DNA from: Butyrivibrio sp. AE3004
GTDB taxonomy: Bacteria > Bacillota > Clostridia > Lachnospirales > Lachnospiraceae
Direction: 5' to 3'
DNA: 64,000 nt
Assembly (NCBI RefSeq): GCF_000703165.1
Contig: NZ_JNLQ01000003.1
Span: 124,001-188,000, forward strand
In this document: positions 16,722 to 49,590 of the stretch, in pieces
How the letters are laid out: each line of letters opens with the position of its first letter
Position numbering within the stretch: position 1 is the stretch's first letter
Notes under the pieces: model-generated
Seen by the model: the letters and a program-made list of their open reading frames with translations, nothing else
Told to the model about the DNA's origin: nothing
The model's database searches: none
Position numbers and translations under genes: made by a program

Positions 16722-16767
16722 GATTTTCAAATTATGAAACAGTTCTTTGTTTCATAATTTGAAAATC
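16722..16767. promoter_or_regulatory. 20-bp inverted repeat between divergent GH3 genes, candidate operator
   Basis: Arms 16722-16741 and 16748-16767 are perfectly complementary around a 6-base centre; the inner core reads ATGAAACA and TGTTTCAT. It is the only strong dyad in the 230-bp divergent promoter region, so one repressor could switch both glucosidases. RpiR-type regulators often bind TGAAA/TTTCA dyads, and one is encoded at 20133-20915. That pairing is an inference. A transcript hairpin is the alternative, but it lies outside both coding leaders' obvious terminator positions and lacks a T-run. Confidence 0.6.
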
Positions 16768-44189: not shown

Positions 44190-44723
44190 TTAATCATTCA
44201 ATACTTTTATATGGCATGCCTTCATTGCAGAAAGTGCTGTGTTGTGAGCTTCTGTGGTAACACCTGCGCAGCCTGCTGCATCAACATAAATCTTTTTATT
44301 GGGAATCATGGCCTTTGTAAGCAGAACATTCGAGATAACACAAATATCAGTACAAACACCTATAAATTCAACTTCATCAATGTTATCAGCATTTTCAGCC
44401 ATATATTTAGCAAGTTTTTCAGAACCGAAGGTCTCCTTGTCTATGATAAGAGAAGCGGTTTCATCTGCATTCAGTTCATCTATGATCTGCCACCCATCGG
44501 TTCCCTTGATGCAATGCGGCACAGGCAGATTCTGCCCTTCCTCTGTCTGCATGTAATCATCACCATGTGTATCTCTTGTAAAAATAATTGTTTCACCGGC
44601 CTCCCTGGCAGTTTCAATCTTTTTCTTTACATACGGAACAATTGCAATTCCCTCCTCATTTCTGAGTGCTCCGGTAATAAAGTCATTCTGCATATCCACT
44701 ACTACAAGTACTTTTTTATTCAT
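44190..44723 (-). CDS. isochorismatase-fold hydrolase (nicotinamidase-like)
   Basis: A 177-residue cysteine hydrolase. The catalytic Asp is in VVVDMQNDFI, the Lys probably in IIDKETFGS, and the nucleophile Cys in FIGVCTDICVISN; HGDDY and PVPHCIKGT form the metal/substrate region typical of nicotinamidases. Nicotinamide to nicotinate in NAD salvage is the likeliest reaction, but related amidases look alike. It precedes no obvious NAD gene. Confidence 0.85.
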   Translation of the reverse strand: MNKKVLVVVDMQNDFITGALRNEEGIAIVPYVKKKIETAREAGETIIFTRDTHGDDYMQTEEGQNLPVPHCIKGTDGWQIIDELNADETASLIIDKETFGSEKLAKYMAENADNIDEVEFIGVCTDICVISNVLLTKAMIPNKKIYVDAAGCAGVTTEAHNTALSAMKACHIKVLND

Positions 44724-44748
44724 TTCGTATTGCCCCTTTTACCCTTCT

Positions 44749-45201
44749 TCAAAATTTCAAGCTGTCTCCAAGCACCGGAACCTTACTGGCAAAAAATGAG
44801 AATTCTCCACTATCCAAAAGATTTCCTTCATCATCCGTTACTCTGATATCAAATACCAATATATGCTTTCCGGTCTTTAGTTTCATGCATTCACAATAAA
44901 TATATTCAGTGTTAACTGCCGGCAACAGGAAATTCAAATTGGCAGAAACTGTCGTAACATAGTATCCGCTCATACTGCCTGTGGCACCTGCCATAACATC
45001 CACAAAAGAAAGCAGCGCCCCACCGTGTATACTCCCGTACGTATTATGAAGCCTTGTATCACACTTAATTCTTGATTTACTATAGGTCGAGCTTAGCTCT
45101 AATATCTCAAAACCTATAAATTTGTTATACTCATTTGCATACAATTCAGAGATCATCTTCTCTCTGATTGCGTTTTCCTTTTCGGTACGTGCCTTTCTCA
45201 T
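44749..45201 (-). CDS. PaaI-family hotdog thioesterase
   Basis: About 150 residues with the hotdog fold signature YGSIHGGALLSFVDVMAG and the strand VSANLNFLLPA. Such enzymes hydrolyse acyl-CoA thioesters. Start ATG 45201 follows AAGGATAAGATA and lies 4 bp beyond the stop of the DUF3006 gene (45206), so the two are translationally coupled; the AAGGA serves as the end of one and the binding site of the other. Confidence 0.88.
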   Translation of the reverse strand: MRKARTEKENAIREKMISELYANEYNKFIGFEILELSSTYSKSRIKCDTRLHNTYGSIHGGALLSFVDVMAGATGSMSGYYVTTVSANLNFLLPAVNTEYIYCECMKLKTGKHILVFDIRVTDDEGNLLDSGEFSFFASKVPVLGDSLKF

Positions 45202-45205
45202 TATC

Positions 45206-45382
45206 TTATCCTTCAATTATTGAATATTGCATTAACTCATATTTAAGCTTTGTTCCTTCAGCTATACCATCCGGCAGAAGTGCTCTCGCAACAAGCTTAA
45301 GATCATCTGAATCAATATCGGTTCTTCGCAAGTTGGCGTAGTCGCCATCTATACTATCAACTATATAAAACCATGTTTCCAT
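45206..45382 (-). CDS. DUF3006-like small protein, 58 aa
   Basis: ATG 45382 has AAAGGAAC upstream and opens a 58-residue frame (FYIVDSIDGDYANLRR near the start, RALLPDGIAEGTKLKYEL later). This follows the DUF3006 pattern: a leading strand with D-x-x-x-G-D-Y-A, then L-P-x-G-x-x-E-G-x-x-L. DUF3006 proteins are small beta proteins of unknown function, often near metallo-hydrolases. Here it is coupled to the thioesterase gene. Confidence 0.75.
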   Translation of the reverse strand: METWFYIVDSIDGDYANLRRTDIDSDDLKLVARALLPDGIAEGTKLKYELMQYSIIEG

Positions 45383-45441
45383 ATTAATGTTCCTTTCATT
45401 GGTAGCTTTTTATATCAAACGAATTCATATTTATAACATAG

Positions 45442-45942
45442 TTATTCATCTTTTTTATATAATCCAAAAATTGTTTTGTGATATTTTCCGAGCTCTTTTG
45501 TAGCTTCCATCAGCTCTTTTTGAGATTCCAGAAGCTCATTTCTTGATTGCTTTATTTCTTCCTTTGCATGCTCGAGATTGTCATGCTCTTTGTCCGCAAG
45601 AAGTAATAAAGTTTCCGTACGTGCACGATCTTCCAGTAAAGCCGCATTCTGTTTGGTCATATCCTGCAGCTCCTTTTGAAGCAATATTATTGCATCCTTA
45701 AGTCTTTCCCTTTCTTTTTGTGCCTGAAAAAGCTCTTCCTTAAGATCTTCATTATCATTGCTGACAACTATATTCCGCTTAAGTCTATGCTTATCGAGAA
45801 ATTCACACGCAAATTCATCAAGTACCTTTCTGCGATCTTCAGTCGTTATGTGTCCTTTCAGTTCATCCTTATATCGGTTTGTCTGTGCCCTTACCGTTTC
45901 GTAGCTTATAGAGCGACTCTCAGCATATTCTTTTAATGTCAT
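45442..45942 (-). CDS. DNA-binding coiled-coil protein
   Basis: About 166 residues. The N-terminal part (MTLKEYAESRSISYETVRAQ) is a helix-turn-helix of the kind found in plasmid/phage regulators, followed by TEDRRKVLDEFACEFLDKHR and a long coiled coil (about 75-160, rich in Glu, Lys, Leu). The layout resembles KfrA-type or MerR-like accessory DNA-binding proteins. ATG 45942 is chosen because GAGGAGAAA precedes it. Role unknown. Confidence 0.75.
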   Translation of the reverse strand: MTLKEYAESRSISYETVRAQTNRYKDELKGHITTEDRRKVLDEFACEFLDKHRLKRNIVVSNDNEDLKEELFQAQKERERLKDAIILLQKELQDMTKQNAALLEDRARTETLLLLADKEHDNLEHAKEEIKQSRNELLESQKELMEATKELGKYHKTIFGLYKKDE

Positions 45943-46044
45943 TACCAATTTTCTCCTCATGCCATACAGTATTGTTCCAATCTGCTACAGTATATTGTAT
46001 GTCAATTATTCAAATGCCACAATAGGTAAAATAGAGGCTTCTCT

Positions 46045-46080
46045 CTTGATGGACATTTGTTGGACATCGAAAAATATAAT
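46045..46080 (+). promoter_or_regulatory. tandem 11-bp activator box and -10, copy 3
   Basis: CTTGATGGACA and TTTGTTGGACA (46045-46066), 8 bp, then -10 TATAAT (46075-46080). Drives the small membrane protein gene at 46192 with a ~105-nt leader. Confidence 0.8.
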
Positions 46081-46191
46081 ATTAAATATAAGCATAATAA
46101 ATAGTTCATAAAATAATAATGCGTGGCTAACATCAAACCGGTTTTAGTCAGGTATAAAAACAAACGTTTTTAGAAGAGGGGGATTAAAACT

Positions 46192-46407
46192 ATGTCAAAA
46201 GAAAGTAACAAAGTTTATTTCACGCTTAATACTATAAGTGCCCTCGCGCTTGTATTTATGGGTATTATGTATTGGGTAGAAGACGGATTACAGAGCAGTA
46301 GTACTATTACTACCATTACATTGGGAGTAATATATGGCTGCATAGCATTCAGTCATTTCAGAAAATACAAAAAAATGCTAAAGATTAAAGCAAGATCTGA
46401 TATATAA
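46192..46407 (+). CDS. small membrane protein, 71 aa
   Basis: Two membrane helices (about 13-28 and 41-55: ISALALVFMGIMYWV; ITTITLGVIYGCIAF) and a basic C-terminal tail (HFRKYKKMLKIKARSD). No family recognised. AGAGGGGGA precedes ATG 46192, as in the other genes with tandem-box promoters. It lies 100 bp upstream of the xylanase gene and may be on the same transcript. Confidence 0.7.
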   Translation: MSKESNKVYFTLNTISALALVFMGIMYWVEDGLQSSSTITTITLGVIYGCIAFSHFRKYKKMLKIKARSDI

Positions 46408-46461
46408 GTATATTTTTCAAAAAAGCAATAAGAACAGATATCCAAGCAAAAAATGGTTAGT

Positions 46462-46513
46462 CATTCCCGTATTCTCCTCTATATTATAGAATATAGAGGA
46501 GAATACGGGAATG
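46462..46513 (+). promoter_or_regulatory. perfect 24-bp hairpin burying the xylanase RBS and start codon
   Basis: Arms 46462-46485 and 46490-46513 are perfectly complementary around the loop ATAG. The right arm contains the ribosome binding site GAGGAG (46496-46501) and the whole start codon ATG (46511-46513); the left arm begins with the complementary CAT. In RNA this would block initiation unless opened. No T-run follows, so it is not a terminator. Confidence 0.85.
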
Positions 46514-47806
46514 AAAAGAAAACAAATGCTATGTGTCATACTACTTAGTACCTTGATGATCTCAGGATTAAGCGGATGTGGCAAAACAACAGTAACTAAC
46601 AATGAATCGAACGATTCTGCTTCTGCCGAGTTATCAGCCGACAGTTCAAAAGCCACTGATACCGCTGATGGAGCCGAAGAACAATCTTCTGATGAAACAG
46701 TCACTGATGAACCGGTTTCTGCTGCGGATGATGCCATACTTAAAGATTTGTCAGAAAAGTTCTTTACTTTCGGTGTCGGAATAAATGGCAGTACGTTGGA
46801 GAATCAAACCTTAAACATCCCTGAATACATGGAGCTTTGTAAAAAACATTTCAACAGCTGCACTATGACCAATCTTATGAAGAGCTGTTACATCCTTGAT
46901 CAGATGGGCTCACAGGAAAATCTCAAAAACGGCAATGAAGAGCCTGCTCTTTCCTTTTTTTCAATCGATCCCACCCTGGAATGGTGCAAAGAAAACGGCA
47001 TGAAAATGCGTGGTCACACACTTGTGTGGCATACTCAGGCTCCTGAATGGTTTTTCAGAGAGGGGTATTCCGAAGACGGTGATTATGTTTCAAAAGATAC
47101 CATGCTTCTCAGAATGGAAAGCTACATTCGTCAGCTTATGACTCATGTTCAAGAAGAATATCCGGGAGTTGTTTATTGCTGGGATGTAGTTAATGAAGCT
47201 GTTGATCCTGAAAGTGCCGATCCCGAGAGTGGTTTTATGTGCAGGACCAAACTGGAAGAAGCTGATAATCCATGGTATGCGACAATCGGCGCTGATTATG
47301 TAGAAATGGCTTTCACATATGCAAGAAAATATGCCGCAGATGACGTAAAGCTTTTCTATAACGATTACAACACATATCAGGCGCCTAAAACCGATGGAAT
47401 CTACACTTTGTGTGAGTCACTCAAAGAGAAAGGTCTGATAGATGGCATTGGAATGCAAGGATATTGGGGAATTGATTATCCTTCCGATGCAGTTATAGAA
47501 TCCGCAATCAGGAAGTTCTCTGAACTTGGTCTTGAAATACAGGTTACTGAGCTTTCTGTAGGAGTAGACGAAGAAACTGATGCCCAATTTAACAGGCAGG
47601 GCGACAAATACGGTCGCATTTTCAAAATGCTTTGCAGACTGGATAGCGATAATGGTGGTCCGGCAAACATAACAAACGTTACTGTCTTTGGTCTGGTAGA
47701 CCATTACCGTGAGGGTGATACCACTAATTCAAGATTATTTGACAAACACTATCTGCCCAAACCGGCATTTGTGAAAATAAAAGAAGCACTTGAAAATTTC
47801 AGTTAA
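46511..47806 (+). CDS. GH10 endo-beta-1,4-xylanase lipoprotein
   Basis: A 431-residue exported xylanase. Signal peptide with lipobox LSGC (Cys near 22), an acidic Ser/Thr linker to about 75, then the GH10 barrel: RGHTLVWHTQAPEWF (substrate-binding His/Trp), acid/base Glu in CWDVVNEAVD (near 229) and nucleophile Glu in IQVTELSVG (near 346). It would cut xylan at the cell surface, feeding the uptake system at 8.7-10.1 kb. The lack of a carbohydrate-binding module is usual for small surface GH10 enzymes. Translation start is inside a perfect hairpin. Confidence 0.95.
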   Translation: MKRKQMLCVILLSTLMISGLSGCGKTTVTNNESNDSASAELSADSSKATDTADGAEEQSSDETVTDEPVSAADDAILKDLSEKFFTFGVGINGSTLENQTLNIPEYMELCKKHFNSCTMTNLMKSCYILDQMGSQENLKNGNEEPALSFFSIDPTLEWCKENGMKMRGHTLVWHTQAPEWFFREGYSEDGDYVSKDTMLLRMESYIRQLMTHVQEEYPGVVYCWDVVNEAVDPESADPESGFMCRTKLEEADNPWYATIGADYVEMAFTYARKYAADDVKLFYNDYNTYQAPKTDGIYTLCESLKEKGLIDGIGMQGYWGIDYPSDAVIESAIRKFSELGLEIQVTELSVGVDEETDAQFNRQGDKYGRIFKMLCRLDSDNGGPANITNVTVFGLVDHYREGDTTNSRLFDKHYLPKPAFVKIKEALENFS

Positions 47807-47818
47807 ATAAAAAATAAT

Positions 47819-47873
47819 AAGTCGGCAACAATTCTGAATCATATCTCATGATCAAGTGTTGCCGACTTTTTTA
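47819..47873 (+). terminator. terminator after the xylanase gene
   Basis: AAGTCGGCAACA pairs perfectly with TGTTGCCGACTT around a 26-base loop, followed by TTTTTAATAA. Confidence 0.9.
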
Positions 47874-48248
47874 ATAATTCTCAAGATCTTTGGTTCTAAC
47901 GGGTTCCCCATTAAGCAAAATATATCCCTTAGGTAGCGTTGCCACATCAATATGCTTCAATTTAACCTCATTGTGGCTATGAGGAATCGTTCCATCAGAG
48001 TTATTCGCCCTATGTCTGTTTGCAGTATCATAAGAGCCGGATTCCCAGTGCTTATGAGGCATTGCAGATGATTCGGGGTGCGTCATTGCACCTGCATATT
48101 TTGTTTCGGAAAATCGTTTTGAAAGCGTCTTCATATTAACGTTTTTCTTAGAACTGCTACTCTGCCCCGCCTTTATAACTGGTTTAACCAGTTTTAGAAC
48201 AAATAAAATTATTATTGCAACTGTAATTATACTATCCATGTTAAACAT
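47871..48248 (-). CDS. membrane-anchored hypothetical protein, 125 aa
   Basis: One N-terminal helix (SIITVAIIILFVLKLV), then a hydrophilic His- and Ser-rich stretch (AMPHKHWESG, GTIPHSHNEVKLKH) and a C-terminal segment LPKGYILLNGEPVRTKDLE. I do not recognise a family. The ATG at 48248 has GGGAGG upstream and lies 1 bp after the stop of the SGNH lipoprotein gene, so the pair is coupled. Confidence 0.65.
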   Translation of the reverse strand: MFNMDSIITVAIIILFVLKLVKPVIKAGQSSSSKKNVNMKTLSKRFSETKYAGAMTHPESSAMPHKHWESGSYDTANRHRANNSDGTIPHSHNEVKLKHIDVATLPKGYILLNGEPVRTKDLENY

Positions 48249-48249
48249 A

Positions 48250-48870
48250 TTATTCCTCCCCGGCTAAAGCGCTTAAAATGTAGTTCCATATAGCTGTAGT
48301 AGGTTTTGGATTATAATGGATTCCGTCAGGTGATACCTCTATATTGTTTTTTACATAAGTATACAGGTCAATTACTTTTACATTATGCGAAGCTGCCCAT
48401 TTCGTAATCTCGCTGTTAAAATCCATCATTTTTTGGTTAGGATAATTACCAACATTGAAATCTCCGCTTAAATTCTCGTCAACGGTAGGTCCGACTGTAC
48501 AAATAACAATTGTCTTCCCTTGAGAAATAAGATTTTCGTAAACCGATTCATACAGTTTTGCATCATTATTATCGTTGCACCCAAGCCATGACACTAATGT
48601 ATCAAATTCATCTGTGCCGTATTTCCCAATTACATCCGTCATATATGCACAATGACAACCATCCTTTGCAAAAACACGTATTCCCTCAGTATGATAATCA
48701 TAAATTTCCTCGGCATCACCATCAAACATATCAACCGATCTTGAATCACCGATGAAAAATATCCTGCCATACTCATTTTTATATGGTTCTGTAGTTGCTG
48801 CCTCAGTTTTAGCACAGCCTGACAGCAACACGCTTATCAGACATAGTAAAAATACAATCCTTTTATACAT
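48250..48870 (-). CDS. SGNH-type hydrolase lipoprotein
   Basis: About 206 residues with signal peptide and lipobox LLSGC, then a compact SGNH fold: block I FFIGDSRSVDM (nucleophile Ser), SWLGCNDNND in the Asn position, and the final DGIHYNPKPT with the catalytic Asp and His. It probably removes acyl groups from a polysaccharide or from peptidoglycan at the cell surface. Start ATG 48870 follows GAGGAGC; the frame further upstream is not needed. Coupled to the gene at 47871. Confidence 0.85.
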   Translation of the reverse strand: MYKRIVFLLCLISVLLSGCAKTEAATTEPYKNEYGRIFFIGDSRSVDMFDGDAEEIYDYHTEGIRVFAKDGCHCAYMTDVIGKYGTDEFDTLVSWLGCNDNNDAKLYESVYENLISQGKTIVICTVGPTVDENLSGDFNVGNYPNQKMMDFNSEITKWAASHNVKVIDLYTYVKNNIEVSPDGIHYNPKPTTAIWNYILSALAGEE

Positions 48871-48942
48871 CCCATGCTCCTCAAATAATAATAATTGCAA
48901 CATGAATATTATAAAAGAATTTCGCCTTTCAGGACAGTTTTT

Positions 48943-49590
48943 TCAGAGCAAAAACTGATACATAAATATAAAATGGCAAAAACTTCCACCCATCACAAAT
49001 AGATGAAATACTTCATGAGACCCGAAATAGGGATGTTTTTCATTAAATCTTGATAACTTTAGAGCGTAGACCACGCCGCCGACAGTATAAATAATTCCAC
49101 CGATAAGTAGCCACATAAAGCCTAAATGACTCAGATTATTGTATATTGGACGCATTACAAGAACCACACTCCATCCCAAAGCTATGTATATAAGCGAAGA
49201 GAACCAGCGTGGGCAGTTAATCCAGAAAACCTTAAGAACAATACCAATTATTGCAAAACTCCAAACTGCTATGAGCAAGGGAATTCCTATCTCTGAGCTC
49301 AATGCCAGAACACAGACAGGCGTATATGAGCCTGCAATTAGAACAAATATCATTGAATGATCAAGCTTACGTAAAACGCAAATGACCGCAGGAGTAGAAT
49401 TTACAGCATGATAAAAAGCACTGGCACCATACAGCATTATCATACTTACGGCAAAAACAAGCATGGCAATAACATATATACTGCCAAAATCAGATGCCTT
49501 TAATATTAATGGCAAACTGGCTCCGACTGAAAGGAACATAGCTGCCAAATGTGTAAGAGCACTGCCGGGTTCTCTGATAGATATCTGCAT
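48943..49590 (-). CDS. hemolysin III / PAQR-family membrane protein
   Basis: A 215-residue protein with seven membrane helices and the family metal-site residues: SAFYHAV near 58, LRKLDHSMIFVLIAGSYTPV near 77 and the C-terminal FGSHEVFHLFVMGGSFCHF. These proteins of the YqfA/TrhA type affect membrane lipid and energy state; haemolysis is an old and doubtful name. Start ATG 49590 has AAAGGAG upstream. Confidence 0.92.
   Translation of the reverse strand: MQISIREPGSALTHLAAMFLSVGASLPLILKASDFGSIYVIAMLVFAVSMIMLYGASAFYHAVNSTPAVICVLRKLDHSMIFVLIAGSYTPVCVLALSSEIGIPLLIAVWSFAIIGIVLKVFWINCPRWFSSLIYIALGWSVVLVMRPIYNNLSHLGFMWLLIGGIIYTVGGVVYALKLSRFNEKHPYFGSHEVFHLFVMGGSFCHFIFMYQFLL

Follow-up and report, generated by a model that had tools for sequence, protein, structure and literature searches.

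We examined a window of 64,000 nucleotides of Butyrivibrio sp. AE3004 DNA (the whole stretch that was analysed), in which the gene of a xylanase-like protein of 431 aa begins within a long inverted repeat. The ORF matches Pfam PF00331 (GH10, E 7.2e-76), its N-terminus appears lipoprotein-like, and it contains the motifs WDVVNEA and TELS, which we take to be the catalytic motifs of GH10. Both motifs are also present in the orthologue of Butyrivibrio sp. INlla16, a 79-percent relative among the best 80 of 580 loci; dN between the two genes is 0.12 over 412 codons, and synonymous sites are saturated, so that no dN/dS ratio can be given. The features of the locus, all on the + strand, are as follows.

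46192..46407, +, orphan ORF of 71 aa (only itself in a protein search), a possible source of read-through RNA
46425..46460, +, putative promoter box GCAA-N18-CAA-N4-TGRKTAG (GCAATAAGAACAGATATCCAAGCAAAAAATGGTTAG), the only exact match in the genome and present in 16/29 other orthologous promoters
46461..46485, +, left arm of the hairpin, read as promoter spacer and -10 from its position relative to the box and the -10
46480..46485, +, -10 candidate TATATT (box +19), from comparison with the +20/+21 of relatives
46482..46487, +, -10 candidate TATTAT (box +21), from the same comparison
46486..46489, +, loop, ATAG in the sequence
46490..46514, +, right arm, with the expected transcription start (about 46491-46495, placed from the -10), leader, Shine-Dalgarno (SD) sequence and ATG
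46496..46501, +, SD sequence GAGGAG, read from the sequence
46511..47806, +, GH10 xylanase-like gene, 431 aa (ORF; Pfam PF00331)

The hairpin over the xylanase start and its surroundings

The arms of the hairpin form 25 perfect pairs around a loop of 4 nt. The preliminary description of this DNA, which had reported a perfect stem of 24 bp, was thus correct on the pairing and one pair short on the length, while the four-base loop and the presence of GAGGAG and the complete ATG (46511-46513) in the right arm are as it had described them. About 2e-9 perfect hairpins of 25 bp (loop 3-12) are expected per 64 kb, and the longest perfect hairpin in five mononucleotide shuffles of the window, with a loop of up to 30, was 10-11 bp. 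The predicted RNA fold of 46408-46560 has a z-score of -9.4, with none of 200 shuffles equally stable, and an exact search of the 4.47-Mb genome with a 14-nt core of the arm gave the two arms of this hairpin and no other site. In a 447-kb sample, consisting of the window and 383 kb more of the same genome, we looked for hairpins with a loop of 3-12 over the starts of 361 ORFs, each 100 aa or longer and with its start picked by a simple SD score, and the runner-up measured 8 bp. The same sample contains eight perfect hairpins of at least 14 bp (loop up to 12), the two longest of which, 25 and 20 bp, both lie in the window, the other six being 14-18 bp long. The 20-bp hairpin (16722-16767, loop 6 nt) lies between divergent GH3 genes and covers no start codon; a search of the 78 other genomes of the genus with residues 1-500 of the + strand gene, its start taken as ATG 16875, gave no match at 1e-120.

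Several other identities for the stem at the xylanase start were rejected. A search of Rfam gave no match above the gathering score and 11 below it, all to microRNA families (E up to 1 in 44500-49000), which does not support a known structured RNA family. The stem is not a terminator on the + strand, being absent from the terminator scan and followed by no T run. As for a mobile or phage origin, viral contigs gave no exact match to the 20 nt at the 3′ end of the left arm, and a plasmid collection gave no match to 45900-47850.

The upstream 71-aa ORF ends with its stop codon at 46405-46407, 53 nt before the stem; a protein search with it found only itself, and the scan lists no terminator-like site on the + strand between this ORF and the stem. 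The GH10 gene appears not to lie in a conserved neighbourhood, as none of six adjacent ORFs, four before it and two after it, was recovered at 1e-3 in the flanks, of at most 3 kb, of the best 80 of 580 loci. Beyond its 3′ end, an inverted repeat (47819-47868), whose 12-bp arms enclose a 26-nt loop and are flanked by runs of A and T, sits between the gene and its convergent downstream neighbour, and by eye resembles a bidirectional terminator; its loop places it outside the reach of the terminator scan, which had a loop limit of 8.

Orthologous leaders and a conserved promoter box

The GH10 gene was sought in 60 relatives, in named genomes (the best 80 of 580 loci) and in a genus set of 79 genomes, its own included; in this last set 29 other genomes have a match at 1e-170 and 49 do not. 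The comparison of orthologous leaders proposed in the preliminary description was made on these 29, in which perfect hairpins with a loop of 3-20 were scanned from -60 to +10 of a start chosen by the script. None exceeds 11 bp: 25/29 orthologues have no perfect hairpin of at least 7 bp near the start, and the other four have hairpins of 11, 10, 7 and 7 bp. Because of this, and within the limits of one genome per species, the 25-bp stem appears to be lineage-specific and the symmetry of recent origin, which the preliminary description had offered as one possibility. The structure is likewise kept in 0/29 orthologous leaders when they are considered as leaders of the thermosensor or riboswitch type. 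One GH10 leader (L167, G102) carries an 11-bp inverted repeat with a 7-nt loop and a -10-like TATAGT in its left arm, and on its sequence appears to be a similar but shorter version of the window's hairpin.

We then compared the sequences upstream of the start. After 11 duplicates had been dropped from 43 leaders, CAA-N4-TGRKTAG was present in 15 of the 32 remaining leaders of 160 nt (own included), whereas 300 dinucleotide shuffles yielded 0.03 on average and 1 at most; the comparison is post hoc, as the motif was read off the same leaders. GCAA stands at a fixed distance of 18 nt further upstream in all 15. When up to 350 nt were scanned, the exact box GCAA-N18-CAA-N4-TGRKTAG was found in 16/29 other genus orthologues and in the window, and 13/29 lacked it; in its own genome the copy at 46425-46460 is the sole exact one. 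A -10-like (TATAAT-like) hexamer, defined by a match of 4/6 or better with A2 and T6, follows the box at +20 in 14/16 relatives and at +21 in the other two, some leaders having extra -10-like hexamers between +15 and +25.

The box with TA at +20 has 17 matches in 16 of 61 genus genomes (own included), compared to 0 for the reversed control, and 14 of these lie in front of this GH10 gene, reduced in one case to an 86-aa remnant. The remaining three precede an ABC-type permease, a carboxylesterase and a GH43 gene. The genome under study is itself absent from these matches, since its -10 lies at +19 or +21. It also has four boxes with one mismatch besides the exact one, no excess over the 1 and 4 of the reversed-pattern control; three of them precede a GH43/CBM6 or GH10 gene, in two cases the same one, and the fourth is near a short ORF. 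The GCAA and CAA cores are spaced 21 bp apart, and the box would presumably overlap the -35 position, as we take to be usual for a class II activator of the AraC type. The sequence at 46425-46460 is a probable candidate for an activator site. Among the papers brought up by literature searches on Butyrivibrio promoters, none describes such a site in its title or the opening of its abstract.

The box ends at 46460 and directly adjoins the left arm, which starts at 46461. The -10 candidate TATATT is formed by the last six bases of that arm, and TATTAT extends two bases into the loop; a generic sigma-70 scan does not set them apart, as both score only 9/12 matches and its total of 9 sites is no excess over the 6.8 in shuffles (sd 2.6). 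Because the left arm begins right after the box and ends in a -10, it can be read as the promoter spacer together with the -10. The usual distance from a -10 to the start site is 6-8 nt. Since the conserved box and the -10 put the latter at the end of the left arm, the gene's own transcript should start at about 46491-46495, inside the right arm. Box and ATG are only 50 nt apart, the shortest such distance of 17 (the other 16 being 64 or more), so that a leader of about 16-20 nt with a free SD sequence is expected.

This fit also bears on the reading of the left arm as an assembly artefact that is absent from the real genome. An artefact would have had to place a -10 very nearly where the conserved box calls for one, in an assembly of six contigs where the contig with the hairpin has 346,755 bases, which we find scarcely credible. 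As the -10 of the window is off the modal +20, the promoter may be weakened. It is even conceivable, although unlikely, that the event which produced the repeat damaged the gene, by moving the -10 by one base to +19 or +21 and by shortening the leader to the length expected above, with the result that the xylanase is weakly expressed or silent; however, a spacing of +21 also occurs in two relatives, and the ORF is intact with both WDVVNEA and TELS kept.

A further explanation places the function of the repeat in the DNA, as a palindromic operator, a cruciform or a bidirectional promoter with a mirrored -10, SD and ATG on the minus strand. The single-stranded DNA fold is stable (-26.9 kcal/mol, z -13.9) and the minus strand does have a mirrored -10-like hexamer, but the exact box has no second copy, and so none faces the minus strand, the repeat is shared by 0/29 orthologues, and the 14-mer core with up to two mismatches has 20 and 11 matches in the genome compared to 19 and 25 for the reversed control. 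We therefore give very little credence to a device of this kind. On the minus strand of 46461-46514, the mirrored SD and ATG lead into a reading frame of only 15 codons with a hydrophobic product, which is the last part of a 106-aa minus-strand ORF; this mirrored frame is probably a by-product.

Predicted folding of long and own transcripts

We examined how the predicted fold of the RNA depends on its 5′ end, with the 3′ end cut at 46570. In RNAs beginning at 46461 or earlier (five starts, 46192-46461), the probability of being unpaired is 0.000 for the SD sequence and at most 0.004 for the AUG, a predicted complete concealment that agrees with the preliminary description, in which the stem hides both. 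With a start at 46470 the SD is still hidden in the predicted fold and the AUG no longer so, and with starts at 46476 and 46480 the SD is unpaired at 0.33 and 0.58. From 46484 on, the predicted values are 0.52-0.61 for the SD and 0.81-0.90 for the AUG, and for starts at 46490-46496 they are 0.59-0.61 and 0.88-0.90. Since RNAs from the gene's own start would leave the SD and the AUG mostly free, the effect of the hairpin should be confined to RNA arriving from upstream.

The preliminary description had instead placed the stem within the gene's own mRNA, translation being locked until it was opened by coupling to the upstream small ORF, a helicase, heat or RNase III. The predicted concealment of the start in long RNA agrees with this, but the box and the -10 place the start of transcription inside the right arm, and the own mRNA, in which the left arm would be missing, should need no opening event. 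The stop codon of the upstream ORF, for which the protein search found only itself, is 53 nt away, and a ribosome that terminates there would probably not reach far enough to open the stem, which makes coupling unlikely. Opening by temperature fits no better: the RNA 46461-46570 has a predicted free energy of -48.7 kcal/mol, and -7.6 when the left arm is removed, and because the stem would thus contribute roughly -41 kcal/mol, it appears far too stable for a thermosensor. Moreover, none of the 29 orthologues has a comparable lock. Unpaired leaders in orthologues together with a transcription start inside the right arm were what the preliminary description itself had named as speaking against its reading; the former are seen in the sequences and the latter is deduced from the position of the promoter. 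The gene's own expression is probably not locked in this way, and we hold that version of the mechanism to be quite improbable.

A hairpin of more than 20 bp has been proposed to block the translation of spoIIGA-sigE read-through RNA at the B. subtilis sigG (spoIIIG) gene, and does not form in RNA from sigG's own promoter, according to the account in PMC5942855. By the predicted fold, the inverted repeat in the window similarly hides the SD and the start codon in the longer RNA and, as far as that account goes, the likeness is that the hairpin would act on upstream RNA and spare the RNA from the own promoter, for which reason we file the window's case, by analogy, with sigG-type read-through hairpins. 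It differs from sigG, as described there, in that the upstream operon spoIIGA-sigE is known whereas the candidate source of read-through here is an orphan ORF, and in that the stem in the window has no mismatch, covers the spacer and -10 and appears lineage-specific. Own promoters that start inside an inverted repeat, with longer RNAs hiding the SD, are presumably also found in phage T4 gene e and the IS10/IS50 transposase genes. There, the protection serves phage timing or the control of transposition, unlike in the window, where the gene encodes an ordinary catabolic enzyme.

Origin of the repeat and possible role as an insulator

The 25-bp perfection, the 4-nt loop and the absence in relatives are best explained by a single templated event in this lineage, most likely a template switch during replication. 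Template switching at imperfect inverted repeats makes them perfect in E. coli, as described in PMC7202029, and has been proposed as the maker of perfect RNA stems in PMC8794818. In the mutations that these two sources describe, and presumably in the window, a single event creates an inverted repeat or removes its mismatches; the repeat here is perfect, has a short spacer, is absent in 29 relatives and, compared to the described cases, overlies a promoter and a start codon. The switch may have been seeded by the short inverted repeat TATATT-ATAG-AATATA in the middle of the hairpin. On functional grounds, the arm with the SD and ATG would be the natural template, but the alignment evidence is weak: the right arm faintly resembles the leader of the nearest, much diverged relative (shuffle fraction 0.024, compared to 0.32 for the left arm and that relative's spacer), with the best alignment beginning at the -10 of that relative.

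Taken together, we favour an explanation in which the promoter lies within the hairpin, the own transcript escapes the lock, upstream RNA is silenced and the repeat stems from one templated event (probability roughly 0.7). The left arm would serve as spacer and -10, and the right arm as the leader with the SD and ATG. When the gene's own, probably activator-dependent, promoter fires, transcription would start in the right arm, giving an RNA without the left arm that can be translated, whereas RNA entering from upstream would have both arms, form the 25-bp stem and leave the GH10 start untranslated. One template switch, seeded by the short inverted repeat around the -10, would account for both arms. 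The repeat, its uniqueness, the box and -10 spacing of relatives and the lack of comparable hairpins in 29 of them are seen in the sequences and the RNA folds are predicted, whereas we infer the start site, the activator, the silencing of read-through and the template switch. The position of the -10 at +19 or +21 instead of the modal +20, the 13/29 orthologues without the exact box and the result of the generic promoter scan count against this explanation.

The anatomy would be the same if the repeat were a neutral scar, a product of template switching that does not affect fitness and persists because the sequence of a promoter spacer matters little and the stem never forms in the own mRNA; the two readings differ only on whether silencing of read-through matters. 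The absence of the repeat from the 29 orthologues and the identity of the spacer to those of 16 relatives, which at 3-7/19 is near chance, are consistent with such a scar, and we consider it rather probable, although by sequence alone it is inseparable from selected insulation. The fuller version of the favoured explanation, in which a single switch used a copy of the leader and start codon to remake the spacer and -10, thereby creating an insulator that silences the enzyme unless its own promoter fires, is more doubtful and is put forward tentatively. In summary, the current state of the locus is most likely that of a young promoter within a hairpin, either neutral or insulating the gene from read-through.

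A start-codon hairpin in raw sequence thus need not lock a gene, as the position of the promoter decides. The promoter box provides a testable candidate site for an activator of Butyrivibrio xylan genes. If the anatomy holds, the locus would be a young natural read-through insulator from one templated mutation, and if the single-switch reading is true, such insulators can arise in one mutation.
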